Below, one piece after another: positions 12,967-27,916 of a stretch of 33,200 nucleotides of DNA. How positions within the stretch are numbered: the first letter of the stretch is position 1; each line of letters starts with the position of its first letter. The stretch covers positions 1 to 33,200 of the forward strand of contig QKAF01000027.1 of NCBI GenBank assembly GCA_003246455.1, in the 5' to 3' direction. Made by a program: the position numbers and the translations under genes. Below the pieces are notes generated by a model that saw only the letters and a list, made by a program, of their open reading frames with translations, had not been told where the DNA came from and made no database searches. The DNA is from Bacteroidota bacterium. Its GTDB lineage: Bacteria > Bacteroidota > Ignavibacteria > SZUA-365.

Positions 12967-15900
12967 ATGAAAAAGCGTCACTACCTTTCTGCTGCCGCGC
13001 TGCTGTTTGTCGCGACGCTTTTCGCGTCGGAAAAGGTGCTGGCCCAGGAAATCACCGTCCTCCGCTCCACCGCGGAGGAACTGATCATCGAGTATCGGCC
13101 GGCAACCCGGGTGATCGATTACGGCGTCAATGGTCAGGTATACGATTTCTCAGAGGCTTCTTCGGCAGATAATGCCGAAGCGGGCAGCCCGGACCTCCGT
13201 TCCCGGGTTGAGCTGATTGCATTTCCCGCCGTCAGCGGGAATACGCTCACGGTGGAGCAAGTCGATTACCGCGAGATCCCCGGGGTGCACATCGCACCCG
13301 TTCCGGGAATGCGCGACGGTGTCGAATGTTTTGATCAGGGAGTGGGGTACGCGGCGGACGGATTCTTCCCGCATGAGGTGGCGCAGCTTGAAAATCTGGG
13401 TTTCTCCCGCGATCGGATTCTCGGGGAGCTTGTCCTGACCCCGGTGCAATGGAACCCGGCGACCGGCATCGCACGCGTGCATGCGCGGATCGTGTGCCGC
13501 ATCCAGTTCGGCACGCCGCAGGCCAACCTGCATAGCGAAGCGATTGAGGGTCCCGCCGGGATGCTCAATCCGGACATGGCTCGCCAGTGGACAGTCACGC
13601 GCACTCCCTCGGTCGCGAAAGCCATCTCCACAACACTCGCCTCGGGCAGCTGGTACCGATTCGACGTGCAGCAGACCGGTGTGTACCGGCTCACGCGCCG
13701 CTGGTTCTCCGATGCCGGGATCGATGTCGGGACGTTCGATCCGCGAACCTTCCGGATGTTCTCCAACGGCGGACGGGAACGCGCACAGAAATTGAGCGAT
13801 GCGCGACCGGATCCCCTGCAGGAAATCGCCGTTGAATTCATCGGCGGTGAAGACGGCAGTTTTGACGATGGGGACTACGTGCAGTTCTACGGACAGGGAC
13901 TCTCCGGCTTTGCGTGGAATCCAGTCCTTCACACCTACGAACATTTTATTCATCGCTACGACGATGCGAATACGTATCTCTTCACCTGGGGCGGCGGCGC
14001 GGGACTGCGCATGCCACAGCAGGCCTCGCTCAGCGAGACAGAGGTATTTACCCCGACGTTCTTCACCGGGCGGGAGTTTCAGGAAGATGAAATTCTGAAC
14101 CTGATGAATTCCGGGAAAATGTGGGTGGGGAAGCGCCTTGTCGCAGGTGCGGGAAGTGCCGCTTCCATGATGTTCACAAGAAAACTCAACGGACTTGTCC
14201 GCAGCCAGCCCGTCACCTACCGGGTACAGACGGTCTCGAGTTCGGAAGTCGCGAACAGTTTCAGCGTCCGGGCAAACGATATCCCCCTGGGACTGATTGA
14301 GATGGGCACGGTGGATTTCAGTTCCGACACGGGCGACCTGGCGAAGCTCTCCGGATCGCGAAGCTACACCGGAACGGGCGACCTCGCCGACGATCGCTCG
14401 ACTCTTTCAGTCACGTACAACTCGACGAATACCGAACGCACGCGGGACGGTCATGTCGACTGGGTGGAGTGGCTGTACGCGCGCCGCTTCGAACCGCTGA
14501 ACGACGAGCTTCTGTTTTCCGCCCCGGATACGACGGCGGTGATCGAGTTCGTGCTGAACGGCTTCACCATGAGCGACATCACCGTGTATGATGTGACTGA
14601 TTATCGAAACGTGATTCGCATCCAGGCGCAGGTGAGCGGAGGGACCGTGCGTTTCCAGGTGGAGAACACGGAGGGGAATCCGCGCCAGTTCCTGGCAGTT
14701 GCCGCCCCGGCGCTCAAGACGGCATCCGCGCCTGCCGCGATGTCGAATTCCGGTCTCCTGGCGTCGACAGGCGCGGAGTACCTGATCATTACCCACCGGG
14801 ATCTCCTCGAGGCAGCCAACCGCCTGAAAGCCCATCGTGAGCGCGCCGGCGAAGATCAGATCAGCGCGATGGTGATTCCGCTGGAATCCATCTACAACGA
14901 GTTCAACAGCGGCGTGGTTGACCCGACGGCCATCCGGGATTTTCTTGCCTGGGCGATGGGTAACTGGAGTACCCGGCCGCGCTATGTTCTCTTCCTCGGA
15001 GACGGGCATTTCGACTACCGCAACTACAGCACCACGGAACCCATCATGGTGCCGGTCTGGGAAACGGAAAACTCGGTGAATCGCATCGCATCCTACGTTT
15101 CCGACGACTACTATGCCCAGGTGGTCGGCACGGACCCGCGCGTCGATCTTGCGACCGGACGTCTCCCCGTTCAGAATCTCGATGAGGCGAACAATATCGT
15201 CGATAAAATCATTTCGTATGAGACGTCGCCCGATTTCGACCCGTGGAAAAACCGTGTCACCTTCGTTGCGGACGACGGGTGGACGGGAGCGTCCGATTCG
15301 GACGGCGACCAGCATACCCGTCAGAGCGAGATCCTCGCCCGAACGGTCCCTGCGGAAATCGAACAGAAAAAAATATACATCGTCTCGTACCGCACCGAGA
15401 ACACGGCGCAGGGACGCAGGAAGCCCGATGCCAACGCGGCGATCATCGATCAGATCAACGAAGGTTCACTGATCGTCAATTACACCGGACACGGCGCGCA
15501 CGACGTGTGGGCGCATGAGCGGATCTTCCTTTCCGACGTCACCATACCCCAGCTGCAGAATCCGGACCGCCTGACCTTTATTGCCGCGGCAACCTGCACC
15601 TTCGGGCTGTACGACTCCCCCGGATTGCGCAGCGGCACAGAGCTTCTCGTGCTCAAGCGCAACGGCGGAGCCATCGGCGGGCTTTCCGCACCGCGCGTTG
15701 TCTTTTCCGGGGAGAACAGTTCTTTCAACCTGGAGTTTTTCCATCACGTGCTGAACGAAGGCCGTGAATCCGACGGGCGGGCACGGCGTCTCGGTGACGT
15801 GATCTATGCGTCGAAGCAGCGGTACAACGGCATCCCCGGCTACGAGAAATTCCATCTCTTCGCGGACCCGGGGCTGCGTCTCGCGCTGCCGCGATACAAA

Positions 15901-16953
15901 GCCGGCCTCGAACGGATACTCGTCAACGATGTCGCCGTCACCAGCGACACCGTGCAGCTGCGCGCGTTCAGCAAAGTCACTCTCGAGGGCAGCGTGCGGA
16001 AAGCCGACGGCACCCCGTGGGATGATTTCACCGGCACCGCCGAAGTCAGTCTCTTCGATGCGGAGAGATCGATGATCGTGCCCGAGTGGCGCGATTACGA
16101 ATACACGCTTCCGGGAGGGCTTCTGTATCGCGGGAAGGCGCGGATCGACGCGGGGCGCTTCACAGTGACCTTCATCGTTCCCAAGGATATTTCCTATGAG
16201 AACAGTCCGGGACGCGTCGCGATGTATTTCAGCAACGACGCGGTCGACGGGGCAGGATACTTCCTTGACCTGCGCGTCGGCGGTTCTGATTCGACAGTGA
16301 CTCCCGACGGTGAAGGCCCCGCGGTACAGCTGTTCGTCGATGGCCGGGACTTTCTCCCCGGGAAACTTGTCGGCAAGGACCCGCTGCTCATCGCAGACCT
16401 TTTCGACGAGAGCGGCATCAACACGACGGGGATCGGCATCGGTCACGATATTGAAGCGTGGCTTGACGGCGATGACCGCAGCGTCGTGCTCAACGACTAT
16501 TACACCGGCGACCTCGATTCCTACCAGAAGGGCAGTGTCGAGTTCCGATTCCGGAACCTTACGGCCGGCAGCCACACCCTCCGACTGCGGGCCTGGGACA
16601 TCTACAACAACTCGACCACCGTGGAAACGCAGTTCACTGTCGCGGAGCAGCTGACCCTGCAGGACGTCCAGAACTATCCCAATCCTGTCACGGATCAGAC
16701 CGTGTTCCATTTCCGCCACAATGTGCTGGATCCCGTCGACGTCGACGTTCTCATCTATGCATCGAACGGCGCGCTGGTGCGGCATCTCCGCGCGGACCAG
16801 GTCAGCAGCCGCATCGTCGAGATTCCGTGGGACCGCCGTGCCTCCAGTGGTGATAATCTGTCGCAGGGGGTCTATCTCTACCGCGTCGTCTGCCGCACCC
16901 TCGGTGGTGCCCAGGGCAGTGAGGCACAGGGGAAGATGCTTCTCCTCCGGTAA
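12967..16953 (+). CDS. porU: Type IX secretion system sortase PorU (gingipain-like, peptidase C25)
   Basis: The surface transpeptidase that removes the C-terminal signal from T9SS cargo and attaches the cargo to a cell-surface anchor. The product is 1328 residues with a signal peptide (MKKRHYLSAAALLFVATLFA, cut near VLAQ). The N-terminal half has PorU features such as SGSWYRFDVQQTGVYRLTRR. The C25 peptidase core runs from about residue 595 to 980: VLFLGDGHFDYRNY, the catalytic histidine H842 in NYTGHGAHDVWAHE and the nucleophile C877 in FIAAATCTFGLYDSPG, followed by KRNGGAIGGLSAPR. The final 95 residues form a sorting-domain-like beta-sandwich (VQNYPNPVTDQTVFHF, GVYLYRV). The dyad is intact, so it should be active. 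The ATG at 12967 gives the signal peptide; no clear ribosome-binding site precedes it. porV follows at once, as in Porphyromonas. Confidence 0.92.
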   Translation: MKKRHYLSAAALLFVATLFASEKVLAQEITVLRSTAEELIIEYRPATRVIDYGVNGQVYDFSEASSADNAEAGSPDLRSRVELIAFPAVSGNTLTVEQVDYREIPGVHIAPVPGMRDGVECFDQGVGYAADGFFPHEVAQLENLGFSRDRILGELVLTPVQWNPATGIARVHARIVCRIQFGTPQANLHSEAIEGPAGMLNPDMARQWTVTRTPSVAKAISTTLASGSWYRFDVQQTGVYRLTRRWFSDAGIDVGTFDPRTFRMFSNGGRERAQKLSDARPDPLQEIAVEFIGGEDGSFDDGDYVQFYGQGLSGFAWNPVLHTYEHFIHRYDDANTYLFTWGGGAGLRMPQQASLSETEVFTPTFFTGREFQEDEILNLMNSGKMWVGKRLVAGAGSAASMMFTRKLNGLVRSQPVTYRVQTVSSSEVANSFSVRANDIPLGLIEMGTVDFSSDTGDLAKLSGSRSYTGTGDLADDRSTLSVTYNSTNTERTRDGHVDWVEWLYARRFEPLNDELLFSAPDTTAVIEFVLNGFTMSDITVYDVTDYRNVIRIQAQVSGGTVRFQVENTEGNPRQFLAVAAPALKTASAPAAMSNSGLLASTGAEYLIITHRDLLEAANRLKAHRERAGEDQISAMVIPLESIYNEFNSGVVDPTAIRDFLAWAMGNWSTRPRYVLFLGDGHFDYRNYSTTEPIMVPVWETENSVNRIASYVSDDYYAQVVGTDPRVDLATGRLPVQNLDEANNIVDKIISYETSPDFDPWKNRVTFVADDGWTGASDSDGDQHTRQSEILARTVPAEIEQKKIYIVSYRTENTAQGRRKPDANAAIIDQINEGSLIVNYTGHGAHDVWAHERIFLSDVTIPQLQNPDRLTFIAAATCTFGLYDSPGLRSGTELLVLKRNGGAIGGLSAPRVVFSGENSSFNLEFFHHVLNEGRESDGRARRLGDVIYASKQRYNGIPGYEKFHLFADPGLRLALPRYKAGLERILVNDVAVTSDTVQLRAFSKVTLEGSVRKADGTPWDDFTGTAEVSLFDAERSMIVPEWRDYEYTLPGGLLYRGKARIDAGRFTVTFIVPKDISYENSPGRVAMYFSNDAVDGAGYFLDLRVGGSDSTVTPDGEGPAVQLFVDGRDFLPGKLVGKDPLLIADLFDESGINTTGIGIGHDIEAWLDGDDRSVVLNDYYTGDLDSYQKGSVEFRFRNLTAGSHTLRLRAWDIYNNSTTVETQFTVAEQLTLQDVQNYPNPVTDQTVFHFRHNVLDPVDVDVLIYASNGALVRHLRADQVSSRIVEIPWDRRASSGDNLSQGVYLYRVVCRTLGGAQGSEAQGKMLLLR

Positions 16954-16958
16954 TTGGG

Positions 16959-16987
16959 TTGAAATTTCGTGTTTTTCGAGATACATT
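16959..16987 (+). promoter_or_regulatory. Promoter of porV
   Basis: TTGAAA (16959-16964), a 17-nt spacer and TACATT (16982-16987), placed directly after the porU stop. The start site would be near 16994. This would let porV be made at a higher level than porU, which fits an abundant outer-membrane protein. Confidence 0.62.
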
Positions 16988-17022
16988 AACTGTTCTGTCT
17001 TCTAGGTATGATGAGGATTCAC

Positions 17023-18189
17023 ATGATTCGCAAGAGCAAAGCCTTTCTCTTCGCCGTTGCCGCAGGCTTGATGCTGCTGTCATTCGCCCAGGATGCAGCC
17101 GCCCAGACCAGCACGGCCGTTCCGTTCCTGCTGATTTCCCCGAGTTCGCGTAACAGCGCGATGGGTGAAGCCGGCGTCGCGATCGCCAACGATGTGTCGG
17201 CCGTGTTCTGGAACCCTGCCGGTCTCGGCTTCCAGAAGGGAATGGAACTCAGCCTCAACCACTCCAACTGGCTTCCGCAATTCCAGCAGAGTGATCTCTT
17301 TTTCGAGTATGCCAGCTACAAGATGGATCTTCCGTCGACCGGCGGTACGCTCGGCGCTGCCTTGACATATCTCAATCTCGGCGAATTCGAGCGCCGCGAT
17401 GAGGGAAACAACTCGCTCGGAACGTTCAAGAGCTACGAGATTGCGTTCACCACGGCGTACGGTACGCGTCTGGACGAGGATTTCTCGCTGGGTATCGGGC
17501 TTCGGCTCATCCACTCCAGCCTTTCGCAGGTCGGAACCGCGCGCGAGCAGGGATCGGGTACTGCGACCGCGGTCGCGGGCGACATCGGCGTGCTCTACCG
17601 TCCGTCGAAGCTCACGATCCCGTTCAGCGATACCGACATCGGCGGTCGCCTTTCTCTCGGCGCGTCGATCACCAACATCGGCCCCTCCATCAGCTATATC
17701 GATGAATCGCAGTCCGATCCGCTGCCGACGGCCCTGCGTCTCGGTTTCGCGTACGATATCGTGCATGAGAAATACAACACGCTCACCTGGACCACGGACG
17801 TTACCAAGCTGCTCGTGAGCCGTACCGACAAGATGGCGGATCCTTTCTACGAGGCCGTGTACAAGAGCTGGGAAGGCGGCAACGTGATCAACACGTTCAC
17901 GCTCGGCACCGGATTCGAGTACTGGTACTCGCAGCTCGTCGGCCTGCGCTTCGGATTCTTCCACGAGGATCCCAGCCAGGGTAACCGCCGCTTCCTCACC
18001 TTCGGCGCCGGCGTTCGCTACGATGTGTACGGATTCGATTTCAGCTATATCTCCACGGCGATTTCCGACGACGATACGCCGAGCCCGCTTTCCGAAACGC
18101 TCCGCTTCACGCTGACAGTGAACTGGGATCGCGGAACCGGACCGGCAGACGACGGCACGCGCATCCCGGCAGACGACGCCGCGAACTGA
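17023..18189 (+). CDS. porV: Type IX secretion system outer-membrane shuttle protein PorV
   Basis: A FadL-like barrel of the outer membrane that collects T9SS substrates from the translocon and hands them to PorU. The 388-residue product has a signal peptide (MIRKSKAFLFAVAAGLMLLS, cleaved near AAAQTS), then the PorV/PorQ hallmark AVPFLLISPSSRNSAMGEAG followed by AIANDVSAVFWNPAGLGF, and alternating barrel strands through to ETLRFTLTVNWD. I chose the ATG at 17023 because GAGGA precedes it at normal spacing and the signal peptide begins there; ATGs at 17008 and 17011 would add five or four residues. It follows porU by 69 nt, has its own promoter and ends before a strong hairpin. Confidence 0.93.
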   Translation: MIRKSKAFLFAVAAGLMLLSFAQDAAAQTSTAVPFLLISPSSRNSAMGEAGVAIANDVSAVFWNPAGLGFQKGMELSLNHSNWLPQFQQSDLFFEYASYKMDLPSTGGTLGAALTYLNLGEFERRDEGNNSLGTFKSYEIAFTTAYGTRLDEDFSLGIGLRLIHSSLSQVGTAREQGSGTATAVAGDIGVLYRPSKLTIPFSDTDIGGRLSLGASITNIGPSISYIDESQSDPLPTALRLGFAYDIVHEKYNTLTWTTDVTKLLVSRTDKMADPFYEAVYKSWEGGNVINTFTLGTGFEYWYSQLVGLRFGFFHEDPSQGNRRFLTFGAGVRYDVYGFDFSYISTAISDDDTPSPLSETLRFTLTVNWDRGTGPADDGTRIPADDAAN

Positions 18190-18231
18190 TCGCCTGTCCA
18201 CGTCTTCGCCCCATGGCAGACCTGACGAAAT

Positions 18232-18258
18232 GCTCACCCTCTGTTGAAGAGGGTGAGC
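18232..18258 (+). terminator. Strong hairpin after porV, probable terminator
   Basis: A perfect 11-bp stem (18232-18242 with 18248-18258) with a 5-nt loop lies 42 nt past the porV stop. Only CGTTTCT follows, not a full T run, so it may be a weak terminator or an mRNA-stabilising hairpin that keeps porV mRNA in excess over the downstream gene. Confidence 0.65.
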
Positions 18259-18309
18259 CGTTTCTACACCATCATTCGAGTATTGCCGATCATCCCAAGG
18301 GATAATTCA

Positions 18310-21300
18310 ATGTTCAGCATCCGGAACATCATCATCACGATCATTCTTTTTTCAGGTGCTGCGTCCATGCAGGCACAGCAGCCTGGCGTGACGCCGCGGT
18401 TGGACCACCGGTTCGCGCCGGTGTCCGGCGGCAGCGCGCAGGTACACTCCGTGCTCCCCGATACGGTGCGCGTTCTTGCGCTGATGGTGGATTTCCAGGA
18501 GGACGACGATACACGGACGAGCGGAAACGGGAAATTCGGATCCATTTATGAATACGACTACGGAACGGAGATCCTCGACCCTCTGCCGCACGACAGGAAC
18601 TACTTTCAGCAGCATCTGCTCTTCCTCGAAAACTACGTGCGCAAGGCGTCCGGCTGGAAGACGTTCCTGAAAGCCACGGTGCTCGACGGCATCGTCACCA
18701 TGCCGAAGAAACTCGGAGACTACACGTTCCGCAAGGGAGAATCCGAAAGTCCTGTTGCGCAGTTCACCGTCGATGCATGGACACTTGCCGCGCAGCAGTT
18801 TCCTGCGGCGGACTTCGGCTCCTACGACATGTTCGTGATTTTTCACGCCGGCCGCGGACGCGACGTTGATCTGACCAGCAGCTACGGTTACGATCCCACG
18901 CCGTTCGACATTCCCTCCCTCTCATTTACCATCGACAGTTATCGCCGTCTCCTCGGTCAGAGTTTCGACGGCATCGGCATGCCCGACGGTTCGCGGATCA
19001 CGAACTGTGCGGTCCTTCCCACAACCGACATCCGCGAAATACCGTACATCGATGGTTCCCGCGGCCTTCTCGAAATCACCATCAACGGGCTGCTTGCCGC
19101 GAGCTTCGGTACCTACGCGGGTCTGCCTGATCTCTTCGACACCGAGACCGGGCTGACGGGAATCGGGCGCTTCGGCCTGATGGACGGCGAGGGGATCTTC
19201 GCATACGGCGGGATCTGTCCCCCGGAGCCCTCTGCGTGGGAGAAGCAGCAGCTCGGATGGACCGTCGCGCGGGAAGCCTGGGCGGGGAAGCGCAATTATC
19301 TCCTGACGGCCTCCGATACGCTCTCCACGCGTGATGTGCTCAGGGTACCGATCACGAACCGGGAATACTGGCTGCTGGAAAACCGTCAGCGGGATCTCGG
19401 CGGCAACGGGCAGCTTGTCACCTTTGTGTCCGGCGGACAGGTGCAGCAGGTACGTTTCCCGAAAGACACCATCGGCTTCGAGAACAGCAATGTGCAGCAG
19501 CTCAAGGGCGTCATCATCGATGTCGAGGATTTCGACTGGGCGCTGCCCGGCGGACGCGTCATCGCGGACAACGCGGAGACGCGCATCAACGGCGGCGTGC
19601 TGGTCTGGCATATCGATGAGAATCTCATCGACGAGAATATCGCGACGAATACCGTCAACACCGGGCGGAAAATCAAGGGTGTCGATCTCGAGCAGGCGGG
19701 CGGACCCCAGGATATCGGAGTCGAAATCCAGACCGTGCTCGGTACGCAGACCGGTACGGGATCTCCGCTTGACTTCTGGACGCGGGACAACATTTCCCCC
19801 GTCTACAAGAACCGTTTCGACGCGTACTCGTCCCCGAATACCCGCGCCAACAGCGGCGCTTTCACCCACGTGACGATGGATAATTTTTCCGCCGCCGGGC
19901 CGATCATGACCGTCGATATCGCGCTCGGTGACAACACGGTCACTCCCGTCGAGGGATGGCCGGTGGACGTGAGCGCATACCTTCCTGCGGATGACATTCA
20001 TCCGGTGGTTCAGACCGCCGATCTTGACGGCGATGGGCAGCATGAACTCCTCGCCGCATATGGCAGGAGCAGCTCCCTGACCTTCGTCGCCGGCGTTCCG
20101 GGACTCGACGCACCACGCGACACGGTGTCCCTCTTCGTCTTCCGTCAGGACGGGCAGCCGTTCCTGGCGAAAAGCCCTCACGTCTTCACCGATCCGCTTG
20201 CCCGGTTCATGTATGCTCCGGCAGTCGGGGACTGGGACGGAGACGGGATCACGAATCTCGCCCTCGTCATGATGGACAGTCTGAGGACCCCGTCCCAGAA
20301 CTCGACCGCCAGCGCGCGGGTGTGGATCCTGCGTGCCCGCGATGATGACGGGGACGGCGGGTTCGACGTTCAGCAGCGTTTCGACTTTCTGGGAGAGGAC
20401 GGCGCGGTGCTCACGCCACCGGCCGTTGTCGCAGGCCGCCTGGTGTTCCGTGTCCGGGGTCCCCAGGAAGACACGGTGTATGTCGTGACGTCCGAAGTAA
20501 AGAAATTCACCCTCCAGCACACACGGTTTCCATTCCCGCCGGCAATCGCGGCGGATGCCAACTATTCCATCGTCGCGATGCAGGGCACACAGGTGCTGCT
20601 GACGGGTGATCAGCTCCGTCTCATGGATATTGAAACCGGCGCGGTGACCCCTCCGGTCATCGACGGCCTGCCGGCAACCTACTCGACCTGGCATCTGCCG
20701 GGGTTCGCTGCGGCCGGCGACATCGACGGAGACGGGACGCGTGAAGCCCTGGTTTCAGAAGAGAATGACCTGTCCGTCATCGGCCAGGACGGAAATACGC
20801 CGGCGACTGTTCGGGCAGGGGACGGAACGCGCATGGACCTGAGCGGCCTCAACCACATCGCGTTTGCCGACGGCGACGGCGACGGCCGGCTTGACGCCGT
20901 CATGAGCTGCGATGCGCGTCTCCTCGTGCTCAACTACAGCCTTTCTTCCATCGACAATTACCCGGCAGCGTACCCGGTGCGCTTCACGCTCGCAGCAGAC
21001 CTCGGCACCGGCCGCGGCCATGCCCTCTTCGGCGTGGGTCGCGATCAGGTCTGGCAGTTCAGTACCGGGGCGAGGCAGGCGGATGGATTTCCGATTCCAA
21101 TCCCGTCATCCGCCGACGTCGTGCTCTTTCCTTCGCGCGGCGGGAAACTCTCGGTGGCGGCCGCCTCGACCGACGGACACATCTATGTCTTCGAGACCGG
21201 CAACAACGTGACGGAGGATCAGCTGATCTGGCGTTCCAGAAACCGTGACGAACGCAATGCGTTTGCCGTGACGCAGGCTTTCATCGCGCCCGCACCGATC

Positions 21301-21588
21301 GAAGAATTTTTTCCGCTCGACCGCTGCTACAATTGGCCGAATCCCGTATACGACAAGGTCACCTATATCCGCCTGTACGTCGCGGATGATGCGACGGCCA
21401 CGATCAAGGTGTACGATCTCGCCGGCGACAAGGTGGATGAGCTGAACGCGCAGCTGGCCGGTGGGACAGACAACGACATCCCCTGGGATGTCTCCGACAT
21501 CCAGAGCGACACCTACCTGGCGCATGTGAAAGTCACCGCAGGCGGAAAAACCGGCGAGAAAATTATCAAGATTGCCGTCGTGAAATAG
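18310..21588 (+). CDS. T9SS-sorted protein with inactive M6 metalloprotease-like domain and FG-GAP-type repeats
   Basis: A 1092-residue secreted protein. After a signal peptide (ending SMQAQ) come M6 scaffold marks: VRVLALMVDFQEDDD, YDMFVIFHAGRGRD, GLPDLFDTETGLTG, GRFGLMDGEG, WEKQQLGW, REYWLLENRQ and VLVWHIDENLID. Where an active M6 enzyme has HEFGH before GLPD, this protein has ASFGT (residues 264-268, positions 19099-19113), so two zinc histidines and the catalytic glutamate are gone; only D274 remains. Calcium-type DxDGDG loops follow at about residues 571, 639, 802 and 854, as in FG-GAP/VCBS propellers. The last 90 residues (CYNWPNPVYDKVTY to the C-terminal KIIKIAVVK) are a type A T9SS sorting domain. 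The ATG at 18310 has AAGGGA seven nt upstream; a TTG at 18244 lies inside the hairpin loop and is rejected. Likely PorU/PorV cargo acting as a binding protein, not a protease. Confidence 0.85.
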   Translation: MFSIRNIIITIILFSGAASMQAQQPGVTPRLDHRFAPVSGGSAQVHSVLPDTVRVLALMVDFQEDDDTRTSGNGKFGSIYEYDYGTEILDPLPHDRNYFQQHLLFLENYVRKASGWKTFLKATVLDGIVTMPKKLGDYTFRKGESESPVAQFTVDAWTLAAQQFPAADFGSYDMFVIFHAGRGRDVDLTSSYGYDPTPFDIPSLSFTIDSYRRLLGQSFDGIGMPDGSRITNCAVLPTTDIREIPYIDGSRGLLEITINGLLAASFGTYAGLPDLFDTETGLTGIGRFGLMDGEGIFAYGGICPPEPSAWEKQQLGWTVAREAWAGKRNYLLTASDTLSTRDVLRVPITNREYWLLENRQRDLGGNGQLVTFVSGGQVQQVRFPKDTIGFENSNVQQLKGVIIDVEDFDWALPGGRVIADNAETRINGGVLVWHIDENLIDENIATNTVNTGRKIKGVDLEQAGGPQDIGVEIQTVLGTQTGTGSPLDFWTRDNISPVYKNRFDAYSSPNTRANSGAFTHVTMDNFSAAGPIMTVDIALGDNTVTPVEGWPVDVSAYLPADDIHPVVQTADLDGDGQHELLAAYGRSSSLTFVAGVPGLDAPRDTVSLFVFRQDGQPFLAKSPHVFTDPLARFMYAPAVGDWDGDGITNLALVMMDSLRTPSQNSTASARVWILRARDDDGDGGFDVQQRFDFLGEDGAVLTPPAVVAGRLVFRVRGPQEDTVYVVTSEVKKFTLQHTRFPFPPAIAADANYSIVAMQGTQVLLTGDQLRLMDIETGAVTPPVIDGLPATYSTWHLPGFAAAGDIDGDGTREALVSEENDLSVIGQDGNTPATVRAGDGTRMDLSGLNHIAFADGDGDGRLDAVMSCDARLLVLNYSLSSIDNYPAAYPVRFTLAADLGTGRGHALFGVGRDQVWQFSTGARQADGFPIPIPSSADVVLFPSRGGKLSVAAASTDGHIYVFETGNNVTEDQLIWRSRNRDERNAFAVTQAFIAPAPIEEFFPLDRCYNWPNPVYDKVTYIRLYVADDATATIKVYDLAGDKVDELNAQLAGGTDNDIPWDVSDIQSDTYLAHVKVTAGGKTGEKIIKIAVVK

Positions 21589-21643
21589 CGAGCAGACAGC
21601 GAACCGCGGCTCCTCGGTCTGTATCGCTGCATCGACGTCTTAA

Positions 21644-21683
21644 ATCTGACACACGAAGTCCATATCCGACATACGGAATCCAT
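21644..21683. repeat. Tandem imperfect 20-bp repeat before the peptidase-propeller-barrel gene
   Basis: Positions 21644-21663 and 21664-21683 match at 16 of 20 bases (ATCTGACACACGAAGTCCAT and ATCCGACATACGGAATCCAT). The second copy runs into the start codon and carries the GGA that would serve as ribosome-binding site. It could be a local duplication or a paired protein-binding site. Confidence 0.7.
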
Positions 21684-24600
21684 GATCCAGAGAACATACG
21701 CCCCCATTCTCATCGTCGCCTTTTTCCTCCTCGGCACCACTTCCGCGTTCGCGCAGCCGGACAATTACTCCGCGCCGGAAAAGGACTGGTATACGATTAC
21801 CACGAAGCACTTCTACGTTCATTTTCACGAGGGTGCCGAACGCACCGCCCGCGTGGCTGCGAAGATCGCCGAAGAGGTGTACGGTCCGGTGACCGCGTTA
21901 TACAATCACGAGCCGGACACACGCGTCAGTCTGATCATGAAAGATATTTCGGACTACTCGAACGGCGCGGCGTATTTCTTCAACAACAAGATCGAGATCT
22001 GGGCGTCGCCACTGGACTTCGAACTGCGCGGCACGCACAACTGGCTGCGAAACGTCATCGCCCACGAGTTCACCCATATCATCCAGATCCAGACGGCCAT
22101 GAAGTTCGGCCGGAGCGTCCCGGCCATCACCTTCCAGTGGTTCGGCTATGAGAAGGAACGCCGCAAGGACGTTCTTTACGGATTTCCGAATCTCCTTGTC
22201 TCTTATCCATTCCCCGGCGTCATCGTCCCGCCCTGGTTCGCCGAGGGCACGGCGCAGTTCCAGCGCGGCCTTCTCGGCTACGAGCACTGGGACGCGCACC
22301 GCGATATGATTCTCCGGAGCTATGTGCTCGCCGATTCCATGCTGAGCTGGGGCGAGATGAGCGCCTTTGGGAAAACCAGCCTCGGGAATGAGAGCGTGTA
22401 CAACGCGGGATACAATCTCACGCGCTACATCGCACAGAATTACGGCGAAGACAAACTGCCGGCGATCACCCGTGAGATGAGCAAGCCGTTCGTGTTCACC
22501 GTCGACGCCGCCATCAGCAACGTGCTGGGAAAGAGCGGGAAGGAACTGTACGCAGAGTGGGCCGCCTCGCTGAAGGACGAGTACGAGCAGCGCATCGCGC
22601 CCGTGCTGAATAACCGGACCGAAGGTGAGATCATCGCACAGGTCGGGTTCGGCAACTTCCATCCGGAGTGGTCGCCAGACGGCAGCAAGCTGGCGTATGT
22701 TTCCAACAAGACCTCGGACTTTTTCGGCCAGTCGGCCATCTACATCCGCGACAATGCCGGCGCGGAAGAGAAAACCGTAGCGCCGGGGGTCCGCTCGACG
22801 ATTTCCTGGTCGCCCGACGGCAGGAAGCTGGTGTATTCGAAGTACAACGATCCCTCCGTCTACGGGCATCTGTATTACGATCTGTATTCGTATGATCTTG
22901 ATACCGATACGGAAGAGCCCCTCACGCGGGGACTGCGCGCGTACAATCCCGCCTGGTCGCCGGACGGGAAATACATCACCTTTGCGTTCGTGGCGGACGG
23001 AACCGTGAACCTCGGGCTTGTCAATGCAGACGGAAGCGGTTTTCGGGCGCTGACCACCTTCACAAACGGGGAACAGGTATTCACCCCGAAGTGGGCGCCG
23101 GACGGCAGCTACATCGTGCTCGGGTATGCTGCCCGGACGAAGCGGCAGGTCGCCCGCGTGAAGCCTGACGGAAGCGGTTTCGAGGTCGTGATCGCCCATC
23201 TTCTGTATGACTGCCGCGATCCGCGCGTCACCGACGACGGAAGTGCGATCATTTACGCGTCCGACCGCGCGGGCATTTTCAACATCTACCGGCACGAGCT
23301 CACGGGAAACAGCCCTGACGCGCAGCTGACGAACGTCGTCGGCGGCGCATTCATGCCCGATGTCACACCGGGCGGCGACCTGGTGTTTGCGGACTACACC
23401 GCGAGCGGATACAAGATCTCGCTCCTGCGTGACGCCCGGCCGCTGGTTCTGCAGGGCAATGACTATCTGCCGTCGCGCATGTATTCTTCCCCGATTGCAT
23501 CGACCGGAGACTGGGACTGGGATGAACTCAACGCCTACGACGATACGCAGACACCGGAATACAAGACGCCCTTCTATGAACGCCTGTTCCAGAGCATGAT
23601 GTATTTCCCGACGATCCGGGTCGACGAATTCAATCCCGACAACAAGGGACTCGATCTGCTCAAGCCGGGACTCATGATGTACGGCACAGATGTGCTCAAT
23701 CGCCTGGAGTTTCTCGCCAGCGCCTCGATCAATCTCAAAGGGGAGCGCGACCTGTACCTCAATGTCACGTACCGCGACAAGCTTCCGCTGTTCAGCACGC
23801 TCGGCCTGTACCCGGACCTGTCCCTCGAAGTGTACAATGTGACCCGCAGCACCAGCACGGAAATCCCCTTTCCCCTCGACACTGTCGGCGTCGATGTCGA
23901 TTTCAACCTGCTCGCGTTCGCCGTCCGCCTCGGTCACAACATCGCGAGCAATCACATGCGGGTCGAGTTCGGATATACGCACAATCGCTACACGTCGACG
24001 ATCGGCCAGTTCCATCTTCCCGACAGCGACATCCCGGTGCCTGCATCGGACAACCTGTACCTTGTGGGCAACGATCTGAGCGCGTCGTTCCGCTACCGTC
24101 AGATGCTCCCGACACGTGACCGCGAGATCAATCCCGTCGGCCTGCGCTTCTCGCTCTTCTACAATTACGAATTCAACAACTACAATCCCGACGGCGACTA
24201 CGAGATCGATCCCAATTCGGGGATGCGGATCCCGCTGTTCACGGATTTCAATTTCCATCGCTTCGATGCGAACCTCCTTGCGGCGATGCCCCTGCCGTGG
24301 GGCGGACACACCCTGTCGATGCGGCTCCGCGGCGCAACGATCCTCGGCGAGGAAGTCGACGACTTCTTCAATTTCTATGCCGGGGGCATCACGGGCATGC
24401 AGGGATACACCTACTATGCGCTCGGCGGAAACGAACTGGCCAGCGCGCAGGTGACGTATCGCTTTCCGATCATCCCGAGCATGGATCTTCGCATCGGACA
24501 TATTTTCTTCGACAAGCTGTACGGCGGGGTGTTCTTCGACATCGGCGACGCCGTGATGGCCCCGGAGCAGTTCACTGCCACGGGACTGAAGAAAGACATC

Positions 24601-24783
24601 GGATTCGAACTCCGGCTCGAGAGTTTTTCTTTCTCGATGTATCCCACGCGCGTGTTCTTCAGCGGCGCATACGGCCTCGATGAATTCACCCGCACGTTCC
24701 AGCTCAGCAACGTGACATACGGCAAGGAGTGGCGCTGGTATTTCGGCGTGTTGTTCGGTTTCGACCTGACTGACGGATTCTGA
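21682..24783 (+). CDS. Gluzincin-like metallopeptidase / PD40 beta-propeller / outer-membrane barrel fusion
   Basis: A 1033-residue envelope protein. The signal peptide ends at SAFAQ. Residues about 30-315 resemble an M1-like (MA clan) peptidase: HEFTH at 128-132, with a downstream glutamate E188 in WFAEGTAQF as the probable third zinc ligand, so it may be active. Residues about 325-565 hold WD40-like PD40 repeats (FHPEWSPDGSKLAYVSN, TISWSPDGRKLVYSK, NPAWSPDGKYITFAF, FTPKWAPDGSYIVLGY). Residues about 640-1033 form a surface-antigen/BamA-like barrel with GGITGMQGYTYYALGGNE, near the position of the usual GG-RG-Y signature, and late strands to the C-terminal DLTDGF. Similar fusions are known in Bacteroidota, often annotated as Tol-like biopolymer transporters, but their function is undefined. 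The start at 21682 has CGGAATCC just upstream. It lies 93 nt after the T9SS cargo gene with no clear promoter, so co-transcription is likely. Confidence 0.83.
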   Translation: MIQRTYAPILIVAFFLLGTTSAFAQPDNYSAPEKDWYTITTKHFYVHFHEGAERTARVAAKIAEEVYGPVTALYNHEPDTRVSLIMKDISDYSNGAAYFFNNKIEIWASPLDFELRGTHNWLRNVIAHEFTHIIQIQTAMKFGRSVPAITFQWFGYEKERRKDVLYGFPNLLVSYPFPGVIVPPWFAEGTAQFQRGLLGYEHWDAHRDMILRSYVLADSMLSWGEMSAFGKTSLGNESVYNAGYNLTRYIAQNYGEDKLPAITREMSKPFVFTVDAAISNVLGKSGKELYAEWAASLKDEYEQRIAPVLNNRTEGEIIAQVGFGNFHPEWSPDGSKLAYVSNKTSDFFGQSAIYIRDNAGAEEKTVAPGVRSTISWSPDGRKLVYSKYNDPSVYGHLYYDLYSYDLDTDTEEPLTRGLRAYNPAWSPDGKYITFAFVADGTVNLGLVNADGSGFRALTTFTNGEQVFTPKWAPDGSYIVLGYAARTKRQVARVKPDGSGFEVVIAHLLYDCRDPRVTDDGSAIIYASDRAGIFNIYRHELTGNSPDAQLTNVVGGAFMPDVTPGGDLVFADYTASGYKISLLRDARPLVLQGNDYLPSRMYSSPIASTGDWDWDELNAYDDTQTPEYKTPFYERLFQSMMYFPTIRVDEFNPDNKGLDLLKPGLMMYGTDVLNRLEFLASASINLKGERDLYLNVTYRDKLPLFSTLGLYPDLSLEVYNVTRSTSTEIPFPLDTVGVDVDFNLLAFAVRLGHNIASNHMRVEFGYTHNRYTSTIGQFHLPDSDIPVPASDNLYLVGNDLSASFRYRQMLPTRDREINPVGLRFSLFYNYEFNNYNPDGDYEIDPNSGMRIPLFTDFNFHRFDANLLAAMPLPWGGHTLSMRLRGATILGEEVDDFFNFYAGGITGMQGYTYYALGGNELASAQVTYRFPIIPSMDLRIGHIFFDKLYGGVFFDIGDAVMAPEQFTATGLKKDIGFELRLESFSFSMYPTRVFFSGAYGLDEFTRTFQLSNVTYGKEWRWYFGVLFGFDLTDGF

Positions 24784-24896: not shown

Positions 24897-26939
24897 ATGA
24901 GCAAGCGTCTGTTCCAGTACTTCTTCCGTCTGGAATATCTGACCGCATCCCTGCTGGTTCTGGGAATGGTGCAGGTGCTCATCGTCATTTCCGACAATCT
25001 GCCCGAAGCGGATGAAACCTCTTTCCTGAATCCCATCCTCGACCGTATCGACTTCCTCAACATCGCGGACATCAGTCTCGACGCGATTTTCGCCGTCAAG
25101 GACGCGGAGTTCCCTGACGCGCGCATCAAGGTCGTGAACGTGGGAGAGGTGGCGCCGACCCCTGACGGAATGATCGCCCTTCTCATCCGCAAACTGCATG
25201 ACCTGGGAGCTCGCGTCATTGGCCTCGACGTGTATTTCGATCGCAAGCATTTCGAACGTTTCCCCGAGGACAGGCGGGACGAGATCGATGCGCTCGTCGA
25301 TGCGCTGCGTGAAATCCCTGATGTCGTCGTCGTGAACGCCTTCGACGAAGAAACCCGTCAGCCGGTGCTCCCGCTCGACCCGCGAGTGGTGGATTCAAAG
25401 GCGCAGTTCGGGTTTGCAAACCTCGTTCCCGATCCGGACGGTGTTGTGCGCCGCTTCCTTCCCCGCGCCACCGTCGGCGGAGAGGAGTGGCTCAGCCTGC
25501 CGGTGCGCATGCTTTCCATCGCCGCGCCGGACGCCGTCGCACCCCTCTTCCGGCTTCCTCCGGATCCGCAGATCATCTATTACACCGGGACGTACTACCA
25601 GTTCGAAAGTGTCCCGATCGAGGATGTCGTCTTCGGCGACATGTATGACGGTGCATTCTTCAAGGACGCCATCGTCCTGGTGGGCTTTGTCAACGAAGGC
25701 GGCCTGTTTTATCTCGGCGACACGCACAAGACGCCCATGGGGAAGAAAATCGGCGTCGAGGGTCCCGACATGCCGGGAATTCTCGTTCATGCCAACGTAC
25801 TCAACATGCTCCTCAAGGGCACCTTCATTTCGCCCGTCCCGGTATGGGCAGACTGGCTGCTGGTGTTCATTCTCTCATACATCAGCATCGCGGTGTATCG
25901 CGTCCTTAGGACAAAACCGACGAGCCGCTTCCAGGTCGGCGTGCTCATCACGAGCATGCTGTTCAGCGAGGCGGTGATCGTGTTCTTTCTCCCGCTGATC
26001 GCCTTCTTCTATTTCGACATCAAAATCAGCTACAACCTCATGGCGACGGCGGTGCTGCTTTTCATCCCCGCCAGTGCGTTCACCACACGAATCCGGTTCT
26101 GGCTGCTCGAGCTCCGTGTCAGACGTGAATTTGCGGACAGTGCAAATCCGCTGCCGACGGTGTTTGCCGCGGCGTTTCATGACGAAGAGGCGTTTCCCGC
26201 ACGGGTGCGGCTCATCCACAGCGGGATCGTTCTGACGCAGTTCTCCTGGGCGGTCTCCGCCTGTTCCGAAAGAGACGCGGGACGCGCGTGGATCGCCGCG
26301 GATCTGCTCCCCGGCATCGAGGCGTGGAAACGGGTCGTTCCGGAAGTCGCCGCGGTCTGCGACAGGGAAGCGGCGGAAAACCAGGAACTGCGGTATTTCC
26401 TGCGCTTCCTTGCGGGGAAGAAGGACGAGCAGCTGCGGGAGAGCATGGTTCGGGAGACATATTTTGCAACGGAGCTGCGCGGATTCAATGAATTCGTGTA
26501 CTTCGAGGAATGGGAGCTGATGCTCTCGCGGACGCGGTACCTGTGGCAGGTGATGCTCCGCGAGTATCTCGGCGTCAGGCTCGTATCCGTGGATGAAAGC
26601 GGGCGCCTGCATGCCGTAGGGCAGGGACAGCAAGCGCCAGCGCAGGAAGAGGCGGAGGCGCTGTCGGAACAAGCACCGGGGTTGTACAGTACCAGAAAAA
26701 GTCAGTCATTCGTTTTTACCCGTCTTTCACCGTTTTGCGAATGGGCTGAATGCAAACTGCATCGGAAACCGGAACTGTTCGTTTTTGCCGGGCTCGTACG
26801 AAAGCAGTTTGGATTGCAGAGAATCCCTGCGTACTTCGGACCGACCACGAACTGTGAACCTGCCCTCCCGGTATGGACCGTCCCCGAACTCGAAGAGATT
26901 GAAAAGAGTGTCAATACGATAGAAAGGAGCCCACGATGA
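24897..26939 (+). CDS. CHASE2-domain membrane protein without recognisable output domain
   Basis: A 680-residue inner-membrane sensor-like protein. One membrane segment near residues 13-32 leads into a periplasmic CHASE2 domain (about 45-310) with its typical pieces: IKVVNVGE, LLIRKLHDLGARVIGLDVYF, GFANLVPDPDGVVRRFLP, DAIVLVG and GILVHANVLNMLL. Two or three further membrane helices follow at about 315-400. In known CHASE2 proteins the cytoplasmic end is a kinase or cyclase. Here residues 405-680 contain none of the motifs of histidine kinase, adenylate cyclase, GGDEF or Ser/Thr kinase. The last 85 residues include a CX4C pair (FCEWAEC) and LFVFAGL, and their codons are visibly less GC-rich than the rest. 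The stop overlaps the next start (ATGA at 26936-26939), so the pair is translationally coupled. The function is unknown. Confidence 0.85.
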   Translation: MSKRLFQYFFRLEYLTASLLVLGMVQVLIVISDNLPEADETSFLNPILDRIDFLNIADISLDAIFAVKDAEFPDARIKVVNVGEVAPTPDGMIALLIRKLHDLGARVIGLDVYFDRKHFERFPEDRRDEIDALVDALREIPDVVVVNAFDEETRQPVLPLDPRVVDSKAQFGFANLVPDPDGVVRRFLPRATVGGEEWLSLPVRMLSIAAPDAVAPLFRLPPDPQIIYYTGTYYQFESVPIEDVVFGDMYDGAFFKDAIVLVGFVNEGGLFYLGDTHKTPMGKKIGVEGPDMPGILVHANVLNMLLKGTFISPVPVWADWLLVFILSYISIAVYRVLRTKPTSRFQVGVLITSMLFSEAVIVFFLPLIAFFYFDIKISYNLMATAVLLFIPASAFTTRIRFWLLELRVRREFADSANPLPTVFAAAFHDEEAFPARVRLIHSGIVLTQFSWAVSACSERDAGRAWIAADLLPGIEAWKRVVPEVAAVCDREAAENQELRYFLRFLAGKKDEQLRESMVRETYFATELRGFNEFVYFEEWELMLSRTRYLWQVMLREYLGVRLVSVDESGRLHAVGQGQQAPAQEEAEALSEQAPGLYSTRKSQSFVFTRLSPFCEWAECKLHRKPELFVFAGLVRKQFGLQRIPAYFGPTTNCEPALPVWTVPELEEIEKSVNTIERSPR

Positions 26940-27862
26940 AACGCTTGCGAATGATGATTCTCCCGGTATTCCTGGTGCTGCTCTTCGGCACCGCCGCCGC
27001 GCAGGATGGCTTCGTTGTGATGAGTATGAAAGGGAAGGTGGAAGCACGGAAACCCGGGAGGCGGGCCGCGTGGGTGGCGGTGAAAGTCGGTGATGTGCTC
27101 GGGAAGGACTACAGCGTACGGACATCGTTCGCGAGCTATGTGAAGCTGATGATGGGGAAAAGCCGGCTTCTCAGCATCGACGAGGAGACGACGAAAAAAC
27201 TCTCCGACTTTACGCGGAAAGACAACGGTGAGTCGACAGGGACCTCCGGTGCGCTGCTCGCCTACGCGGCGAAACAGATGAAGAGTTCACGCAAGAGCAG
27301 AGGTGAGCCCGTGCTGGGCGCTGTTCGCGGAAACACGGAGGTGTTCTCCGCGGTTTTCCCGAAGTCCTACGTCATGACCACCGAGCCGCTGTTCGAATGG
27401 GTGGATGCCGACGAGGCGATGAAATACGAATTCGTTCTTCTGAATGATTCGTTCGACGTCGTCACACGGGCGACCCTTTCCGACAACAGTTTCCGGTACG
27501 ACAGCGGTGAGAAACCGGCGCTGCTGGAGGATCGGCAGTACTACTGGCGCATTACGCGCATGTCCGACGGCATGGAGAGCGACATACAGAGTTTTCGCAT
27601 CCTGCCCGCCGATACCATCGCAGCGGTGAACGCCGAGCTGGAGGCTCTTGACCGCGAATTGAAGGCCATGGGTGCCGACGAGGTCACCCTGCATCTGATC
27701 CGTGCCATCTACTTCGAAAAAAAATCGCTCTTCACCAATGCGTTTCTCGAATACAAGGAAACCGTGCGACTGGCACCCGACGTCGAGGAGTATCGGCAGA
27801 TGCTTCGCCGGCTGCTTTTCCAGATGAAGCTCTACGCGGAAGAGGAATACCTGGTGAAATGA
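26936..27862 (+). CDS. FecR-like exported protein coupled to the CHASE2 protein
   Basis: A 308-residue exported protein with signal peptide MKRLRMMILPVFLVLLFGTA, cut near AAAQ. Residues about 24-90 resemble a FecR domain: MKGKVEARKPGRRAAWVAVK then VGDVLGKDYSVRTSFASYVK and LLSIDEETTKKL. Residues about 145-225 look like a fibronectin-type or Ig-like module (PLFEWVDADEAMKYEFVLLN, then QYYWRITRMSDG). The C-terminal 80 residues are helical and TPR-like (FLEYKETVRLAPDVEEYRQM). FecR-domain proteins next to CHASE2 proteins occur in other bacteria, where the FecR part is thought to act as periplasmic partner. The start has a strong AAAGGAG upstream and overlaps the preceding stop. There is no sigma factor gene beside it, so classic FecI/FecR signalling is unlikely. 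It ends at a terminator. Confidence 0.8.
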   Translation: MKRLRMMILPVFLVLLFGTAAAQDGFVVMSMKGKVEARKPGRRAAWVAVKVGDVLGKDYSVRTSFASYVKLMMGKSRLLSIDEETTKKLSDFTRKDNGESTGTSGALLAYAAKQMKSSRKSRGEPVLGAVRGNTEVFSAVFPKSYVMTTEPLFEWVDADEAMKYEFVLLNDSFDVVTRATLSDNSFRYDSGEKPALLEDRQYYWRITRMSDGMESDIQSFRILPADTIAAVNAELEALDRELKAMGADEVTLHLIRAIYFEKKSLFTNAFLEYKETVRLAPDVEEYRQMLRRLLFQMKLYAEEEYLVK

Positions 27863-27890
27863 CCGGTTCCGAGAGTGTGATTCTGTATCA

Positions 27891-27916
27891 GGCGTCTCCC
27901 GCGGGGGACGCCTTTT
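27891..27916 (+). terminator. Terminator of the CHASE2/FecR-like operon
   Basis: A 9-bp stem with one G-T pair (27891-27899 with 27904-27912) and a 4-nt loop is followed by TTTT. It lies 28 nt past the FecR-like stop. Confidence 0.85.

Follow-up and report, generated by a model that had tools for sequence, protein, structure and literature searches.

Introduction

The experimental work on the T9SS on which we draw was carried out in Flavobacterium and Porphyromonas. In P. gingivalis, PorU, PorV, PorQ and PorZ make up an attachment complex (PMC8545088), while type B cargo is often encoded directly 5' of a dedicated SprF/PorP outer-membrane barrel (PMC12618676). In the patatin-Omp85 protein PlpD, the enzyme domain lies in the periplasm (PMC11116518). 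The WD40-Omp85 subfamily carries a TolB-like propeller N-terminal to its Omp85 barrel, an arrangement likened to a 'BamA-BamB fusion', and some of the other Omp85 subfamilies described in the same paper have other N-terminal domains (Heinz and Lithgow, 2014; PMC4104836). The word 'peptidase' is absent from the main text of that paper, and no link to the T9SS was found there. Here we describe a locus in which PorU, PorV, the family name of a third protein and the propeller-Omp85 class of a fourth are already known, and in which the third and fourth proteins form a strictly co-inherited pair.

Four genes in a row

The window, the whole stretch of 33,200 nucleotides that was analysed, belongs to a 4.1 Mb genome, in which it lies on contig C47, and carries, all on the + strand, porU, porV and two genes that we call M6i (M6-type pseudoprotease with a probable T9SS sorting domain) and PPB (peptidase-propeller-barrel protein). 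The intergenic gaps are 54 nt (porU-porV), 120 nt (porV-M6i) and 93 nt (M6i-PPB). An earlier note on this DNA had described porU and porV as adjacent and followed on one strand by a sorting-domain protein and a barrel protein; all four genes were found where it placed them, and its gaps of 120 and 93 nt match our recomputed values. A scan of the window found no strong terminator-like site on the + strand between the four genes, and the sole strong extragenic site on that strand lies at 27890-27913, 3' of a FecR-like gene. The block may form one transcript. A MATE-like gene lies 5' of the block, and CHASE2 and FecR-like genes (24897-27862) lie 3' of PPB. The latter two overlap by 4 bp, have the strong terminator-like site at their end, and are found behind PPB in the nearest relatives only.

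The product of porU (12967..16953, +) is the T9SS sortase, a C25 peptidase with a signal peptide and a C-terminal sorting domain. It scores 966 bits against NF033707 (curated cut-off 420), matches Peptidase_C25 at 4e-89 and finds the solved PorU structure 6za2 with a phmmer E-value of 3.6e-95. Its translation shows the motifs NYTGHG and AATCTFG, which may hold the catalytic His and Cys of family C25, and GHG is present in 52 of 52 relatives. The adjacent porV (17008..18189, +) encodes the FadL-like outer-membrane shuttle for type A cargo, at 266.5 bits against NF033710 (curated cut-off 250) and 2.4e-40 in phmmer against the solved PorV, 6h3i. At one locus (L171:344-8661) PorV is preceded by a tandem pair of PorU-like genes that score 1020 and 1023 bits, and the window's genome (G000) encodes more C25-type proteins on contigs C152, C145 and C159, some perhaps of the PorU2 kind.

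M6i is an inactivated M6 protease with a probable sorting domain

M6i (18310..21588, +) probably starts at the ATG at 18310, in a frame that is open from a TTG at 18244, and ends with the stop codon at 21588. At 722 bits against a cut-off of 600, it belongs to NCBIfam NF052323, the T9SS-dependent M6-like inactivated metalloproteases. An AlphaFold2 model (pLDDT 86.5) consists of an M6 domain, a propeller and, at the end, a domain made of strands only, and the M6 domain aligns with InhA2 (4yu5) at Z 22.1 over 375 residues. Alignment columns place the former zinc site at residues 264-276 (19099..19137, +), where ASFGTYAGLPDLF stands in place of HExxHxxGxxDxF. HExxH was found in none of the 58 aligned sequences and in none of 60 further sequences, so that M6i has the fold of peptidase family M6 but lacks the motif of its active members. 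As the zinc site is missing, M6i is expected to bind and not to cleave.

The probable C-terminal T9SS sorting domain occupies approximately 21310..21588 (+; the start is approximate). Its match to Por_Secre_tail (2e-5) is under the curated cut-off, and its scores against TIGR04183 and PF18962 fall just short as well (21.3 vs 23 bits and 25.2 vs 27, respectively). The region nevertheless forms the all-strand end domain of the model, the coverage of NF052323 reaches the last profile position, and a profile comparison matches it to the last part of PorU 6za2. The full sorting domain is kept across M6i proteins, including those of genomes without PorU, and M6i is usually present as a single copy per genome. 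The protein also carries a Sec-type signal, and the combination of this signal with the sorting domain leads us to expect export through SprA and PorV.

In four genomes of the f13 lineage (G001, G006, G011, G016; loci L103-L106) the main stretch of M6i scores 358-388 bits, below the NF052323 cut-off of 600. These M6i genes have the same neighbours and the same PPB as elsewhere; the cut-off misses this lineage.

PPB is predicted to join a metallopeptidase to an Omp85-type barrel

PPB (21682..24783, +) is a protein of 1033 aa with a signal peptide, a gluzincin-type metallopeptidase domain, a TolB-like propeller and a 16-strand Omp85-type barrel, as judged from domain matches to Peptidase_MA_2 and PD40 and from a model (pLDDT 84.9) whose propeller resembles TolB at Z about 27. 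The predicted zinc site is the HExxH motif HEFTH at residues 128-132 (22063..22077, +), with E188, in WFAEGTAQ near 22243, as the predicted third ligand. Each of 54 sequences has H128, E129, H132 and E188 unchanged, and another 52 of 52 have HExxH. PPB therefore has the sequence hallmarks of a gluzincin, HExxH and a downstream Glu, and its metallopeptidase is probably active.

The barrel (residues 640-1025; 23599..24756, +) has 16 strands in the model and aligns with the whole BamA barrel (9co2 residues 425-806) at Z 20.2 and an rmsd of 4.8 over 308 aligned residues; by prediction, PPB is thus a member of the Omp85 superfamily. POTRA domains were found neither by a Pfam scan nor among the top structural matches, and in the model the peptidase and propeller occupy their place. 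In BamA-type barrels the N- and C-termini are both periplasmic. The peptidase and propeller stand N-terminal to a barrel of this type, with both ends on the same side, and the peptidase is therefore predicted to face the periplasm and not the surface.

A distant PPB-like paralogue is encoded in the window's genome about 5 kb from porZ (C85:17626-18813 and C85:23186-23650; L187), and a similar pairing of a PPB-like gene with porZ is seen on contig C31 of G004 (23698, 32131).

Gene order is conserved across the phylum

The earlier note had proposed scoring how often the two downstream genes follow porV in related genomes, and held that their scattering away from porU and porV in close relatives would speak against a conserved arrangement. 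We extracted 60 M6i loci spread over the phylum, together with 8 kb of flanking sequence wherever the contigs were long enough. M6i follows porV directly in 59 of the 60, PorU lies 5' of PorV in 51, and PPB is the next gene 3' of M6i in 51, at a distance of at most 400 bp in 47 of these. A second set of 80 named loci from Ignavibacteria, Kryptonia and related groups concurs on the order, with exceptions that are mostly contig ends: PorV is directly 5' of M6i in 75 of 80, and in the other five the contig ends less than 200 bases upstream of M6i. Close and distant relatives alike keep the order, and these counts rule out chance adjacency of porV, M6i and PPB. The nearest relatives (L108, L110, L112 and L124) share the wider neighbourhood, while farther out it is chiefly the four-gene block that persists.

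At seven loci (L118, L121, L123, L125, L126, L128 and L131) M6i and PPB are separated by a reading frame of 208-236 aa, the start of which is lipoprotein-like in most cases. We considered a conserved extra gene at this position and rejected it, as the frame is present in only part of the relatives.

Co-inheritance of M6i and PPB

Of 148 genomes, 61 have both M6i and a full-length PPB orthologue, and the other 87 have neither. The PPB orthologues, one of which is split over two contigs, score at least 1024 bits, against 156 bits for the next relatives. In an enlarged phylum sample, which contains the first 148 genomes and is hence not independent of them, the two are found in an identical 152 of 395 genomes without exception. 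The pairing outlasts linkage: in about 19 of the 152 the genes are far apart or on different contigs (a few of them owing only to contig ends), and the pair is retained though unlinked in f16, f31, G013, L134, L139, L150 and L170. Of seven genomes reached via the named loci, namely four without PPB beside M6i, two linked Kryptonia controls and L179 (with a fragment), all seven encode PPB.

As Fisher p-values ignore kinship, we built a SprA tree of 80 genomes with MAFFT and FastTree. On this quick tree, some branches of which are weak, the pattern needs at least five changes, each common to M6i and PPB. By covariation of evolutionary rates, M6i-PPB (partial correlation 0.805) did not stand out from M6i-PorU (0.815), a comparison that is uninformative because all linked genes correlate. 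The idea that the two downstream genes belong together is supported by their joint inheritance. Their perfect pairing suggests that M6i and PPB each need the other, their fixed position behind PorV suggests that they act at the shuttle step, and, being present in exactly the same 152 of 395 genomes, the two are a strong candidate for an accessory component of the T9SS that has not been described before.

The pair is tied to PorV and not to the sortase

SprA is encoded in every genome with M6i; in the window's genome it is split over two contig ends (C12 and C103), which is probably an assembly gap. PorU exceeds its cut-off in 57 of the 61 M6i genomes vs 46 of the 87 others. Four genomes (G061, G081, G108 and G119) have PorV, M6i and PPB and lack PorU, the PorZ N-terminal propeller and an over-cut-off PorQ. 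G061 does not group with G081 and G108 in the SprA tree, and the pattern suggests that PorU, PorZ and PorQ were lost at least twice. The retention of PorV-M6i-PPB in the four PorU-less genomes ties the pair to PorV and translocation, and we reject a tie to the sortase on the same evidence.

PorP/SprF (TIGR03519) exceeds its cut-off in 35 of the 148 genomes, none of which is among the 61 listed with M6i, a mutual exclusion that probably reflects one deep split. The T9SS lineages f5, f6, f8, f10, f11 and f15, together with all PorP/SprF-bearing ones, are without the pair, which places M6i and PPB outside the universal core.

Discussion

Our favoured explanation, which we consider about evenly balanced between right and wrong, is that M6i is an exported non-catalytic subunit of the T9SS and PPB its dedicated outer-membrane partner. 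M6i would enter the periplasm by Sec, cross the outer membrane through SprA and then be collected by PorV via its sorting domain; it would stay outside, where its dead M6 groove and its propeller would serve to bind other proteins. PPB would be held in the outer membrane by its 16-strand Omp85-type barrel, with metallopeptidase and TolB-like propeller in the periplasm, and could serve both as a receptor or anchor for M6i at the surface and as a proteolytic checkpoint for T9SS clients beneath. We favour, by analogy, a logic like that of type B cargo with its cognate SprF barrel. The explanation builds on computed results, namely the protein families, the order and co-occurrence of the genes, the loss of one active site and the retention of the other, and the predicted folds; from these we infer the export of M6i, the periplasmic side of the peptidase, physical contact between the two proteins and the checkpoint role. 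We put forward only tentatively a more far-reaching form, in which M6i and PPB would be an undescribed trans-outer-membrane T9SS complex docked on PorV, with the pseudoprotease outside and the Omp85-anchored metallopeptidase inside, for sortase-independent processing or licensing of type A cargo in lineages without PorP/SprF.

PPB might alternatively be an Omp85-anchored quality-control protease at the T9SS entrance, with a task like that of BepA, and M6i an exported partner that acts as a periplasmic adaptor or inhibitor before its export. The invariant HExxH and Glu of PPB, the predicted periplasmic position of its peptidase and the perfect co-occurrence of the two proteins would all fit; we nevertheless think this unlikely, as the full sorting domain of M6i, kept also in PorU-less genomes, points to an extracellular job. 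The same sorting domain is cargo-like, and M6i might be an ordinary abundant type A cargo, an adhesin or binding protein, that shares an operon with an outer-membrane biogenesis factor for supply only, a role for PPB that recalls the BamA-BamB likeness of WD40-Omp85 proteins, as that class is described in PMC4104836. That M6i is usually single copy, is fixed behind PorV, occurs without PPB in none of 152 genomes and remains paired with it after unlinking makes this quite improbable.

Two further readings appear very improbable. M6i could be a counterpart of PorZ in the attachment complex and, as a propeller protein, remain with PorU after export and pass the glycolipid on to it; M6i and PorZ both combine a propeller with a sorting domain, and PorZ (5m11) is the top Foldseek match of the M6i model (E 2.8e-10). 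This match tells little, however, because propellers are common, and its TM-scores are low; a domain scan found no match in M6i to PF21544, the PorZ N-terminal propeller family. The window's own genome encodes PorQ on C16 and a PorZ-type protein on C85, so that M6i replaces neither, and the four genomes named above keep M6i without PorU, PorZ or PorQ. The earlier note, in turn, had all four proteins acting at the cell surface as a dedicated module, with a barrel-anchored peptidase working with the T9SS outside the cell. PPB is indeed a predicted outer-membrane protein with an intact metallopeptidase site, but its enzyme is N-terminal to an even-stranded Omp85-type barrel, and the comparable enzyme domain of PlpD is periplasmic (PMC11116518). 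From the barrel type, we judge a surface position of the peptidase unlikely, its predicted place and that of the propeller being the periplasm.

Should M6i and PPB prove to be a genuine accessory part, the T9SS would exist in a second form elsewhere in the phylum, equipped with a protease in the periplasm and a pseudoprotease at the surface. Translocation would then be naturally separated from attachment in those genomes with PorV-M6i-PPB that lack PorU, PorZ and PorQ. The pair would also provide a first testable context for a WD40-Omp85-type protein.

Comparison with known systems

The open-access literature searched here, to which most subscription journals do not belong, yielded no description of the conserved set, the obligate pairing, the sortase independence or the periplasmic assignment of the peptidase. 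M6i is a member of NF052323 and shares its architecture and inactive site; the text of that entry names the protein only, and it is new here that its members are linked to PorV and PPB and that the family extends to f13 (358-388 bits). With the P. gingivalis attachment complex (PMC8545088) the locus has PorU and PorV in common, and PorZ resembles M6i in being an exported protein that combines a propeller with a sorting domain; in this genome the genes for PorQ and PorZ lie at other sites, and M6i and PPB are retained in four genomes that lack PorU, PorQ and PorZ. As in the type B cargo/SprF systems (PMC12618676), the gene of an exported protein lies 5' of a barrel gene, but the sorting domain of M6i is type A-like, and the barrel of PPB is of the Omp85 type and not PorP/SprF. 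PlpD (PMC11116518) and PPB both place an enzyme domain N-terminal to an Omp85 barrel, where PlpD has patatin-like and POTRA domains and PPB a metallopeptidase and a propeller, with no POTRA seen. The WD40-Omp85 subfamily, as far as its published architecture allows comparison, has the propeller and the Omp85 barrel in common with PPB, to which PPB adds an N-terminal metallopeptidase with an invariant HExxH.
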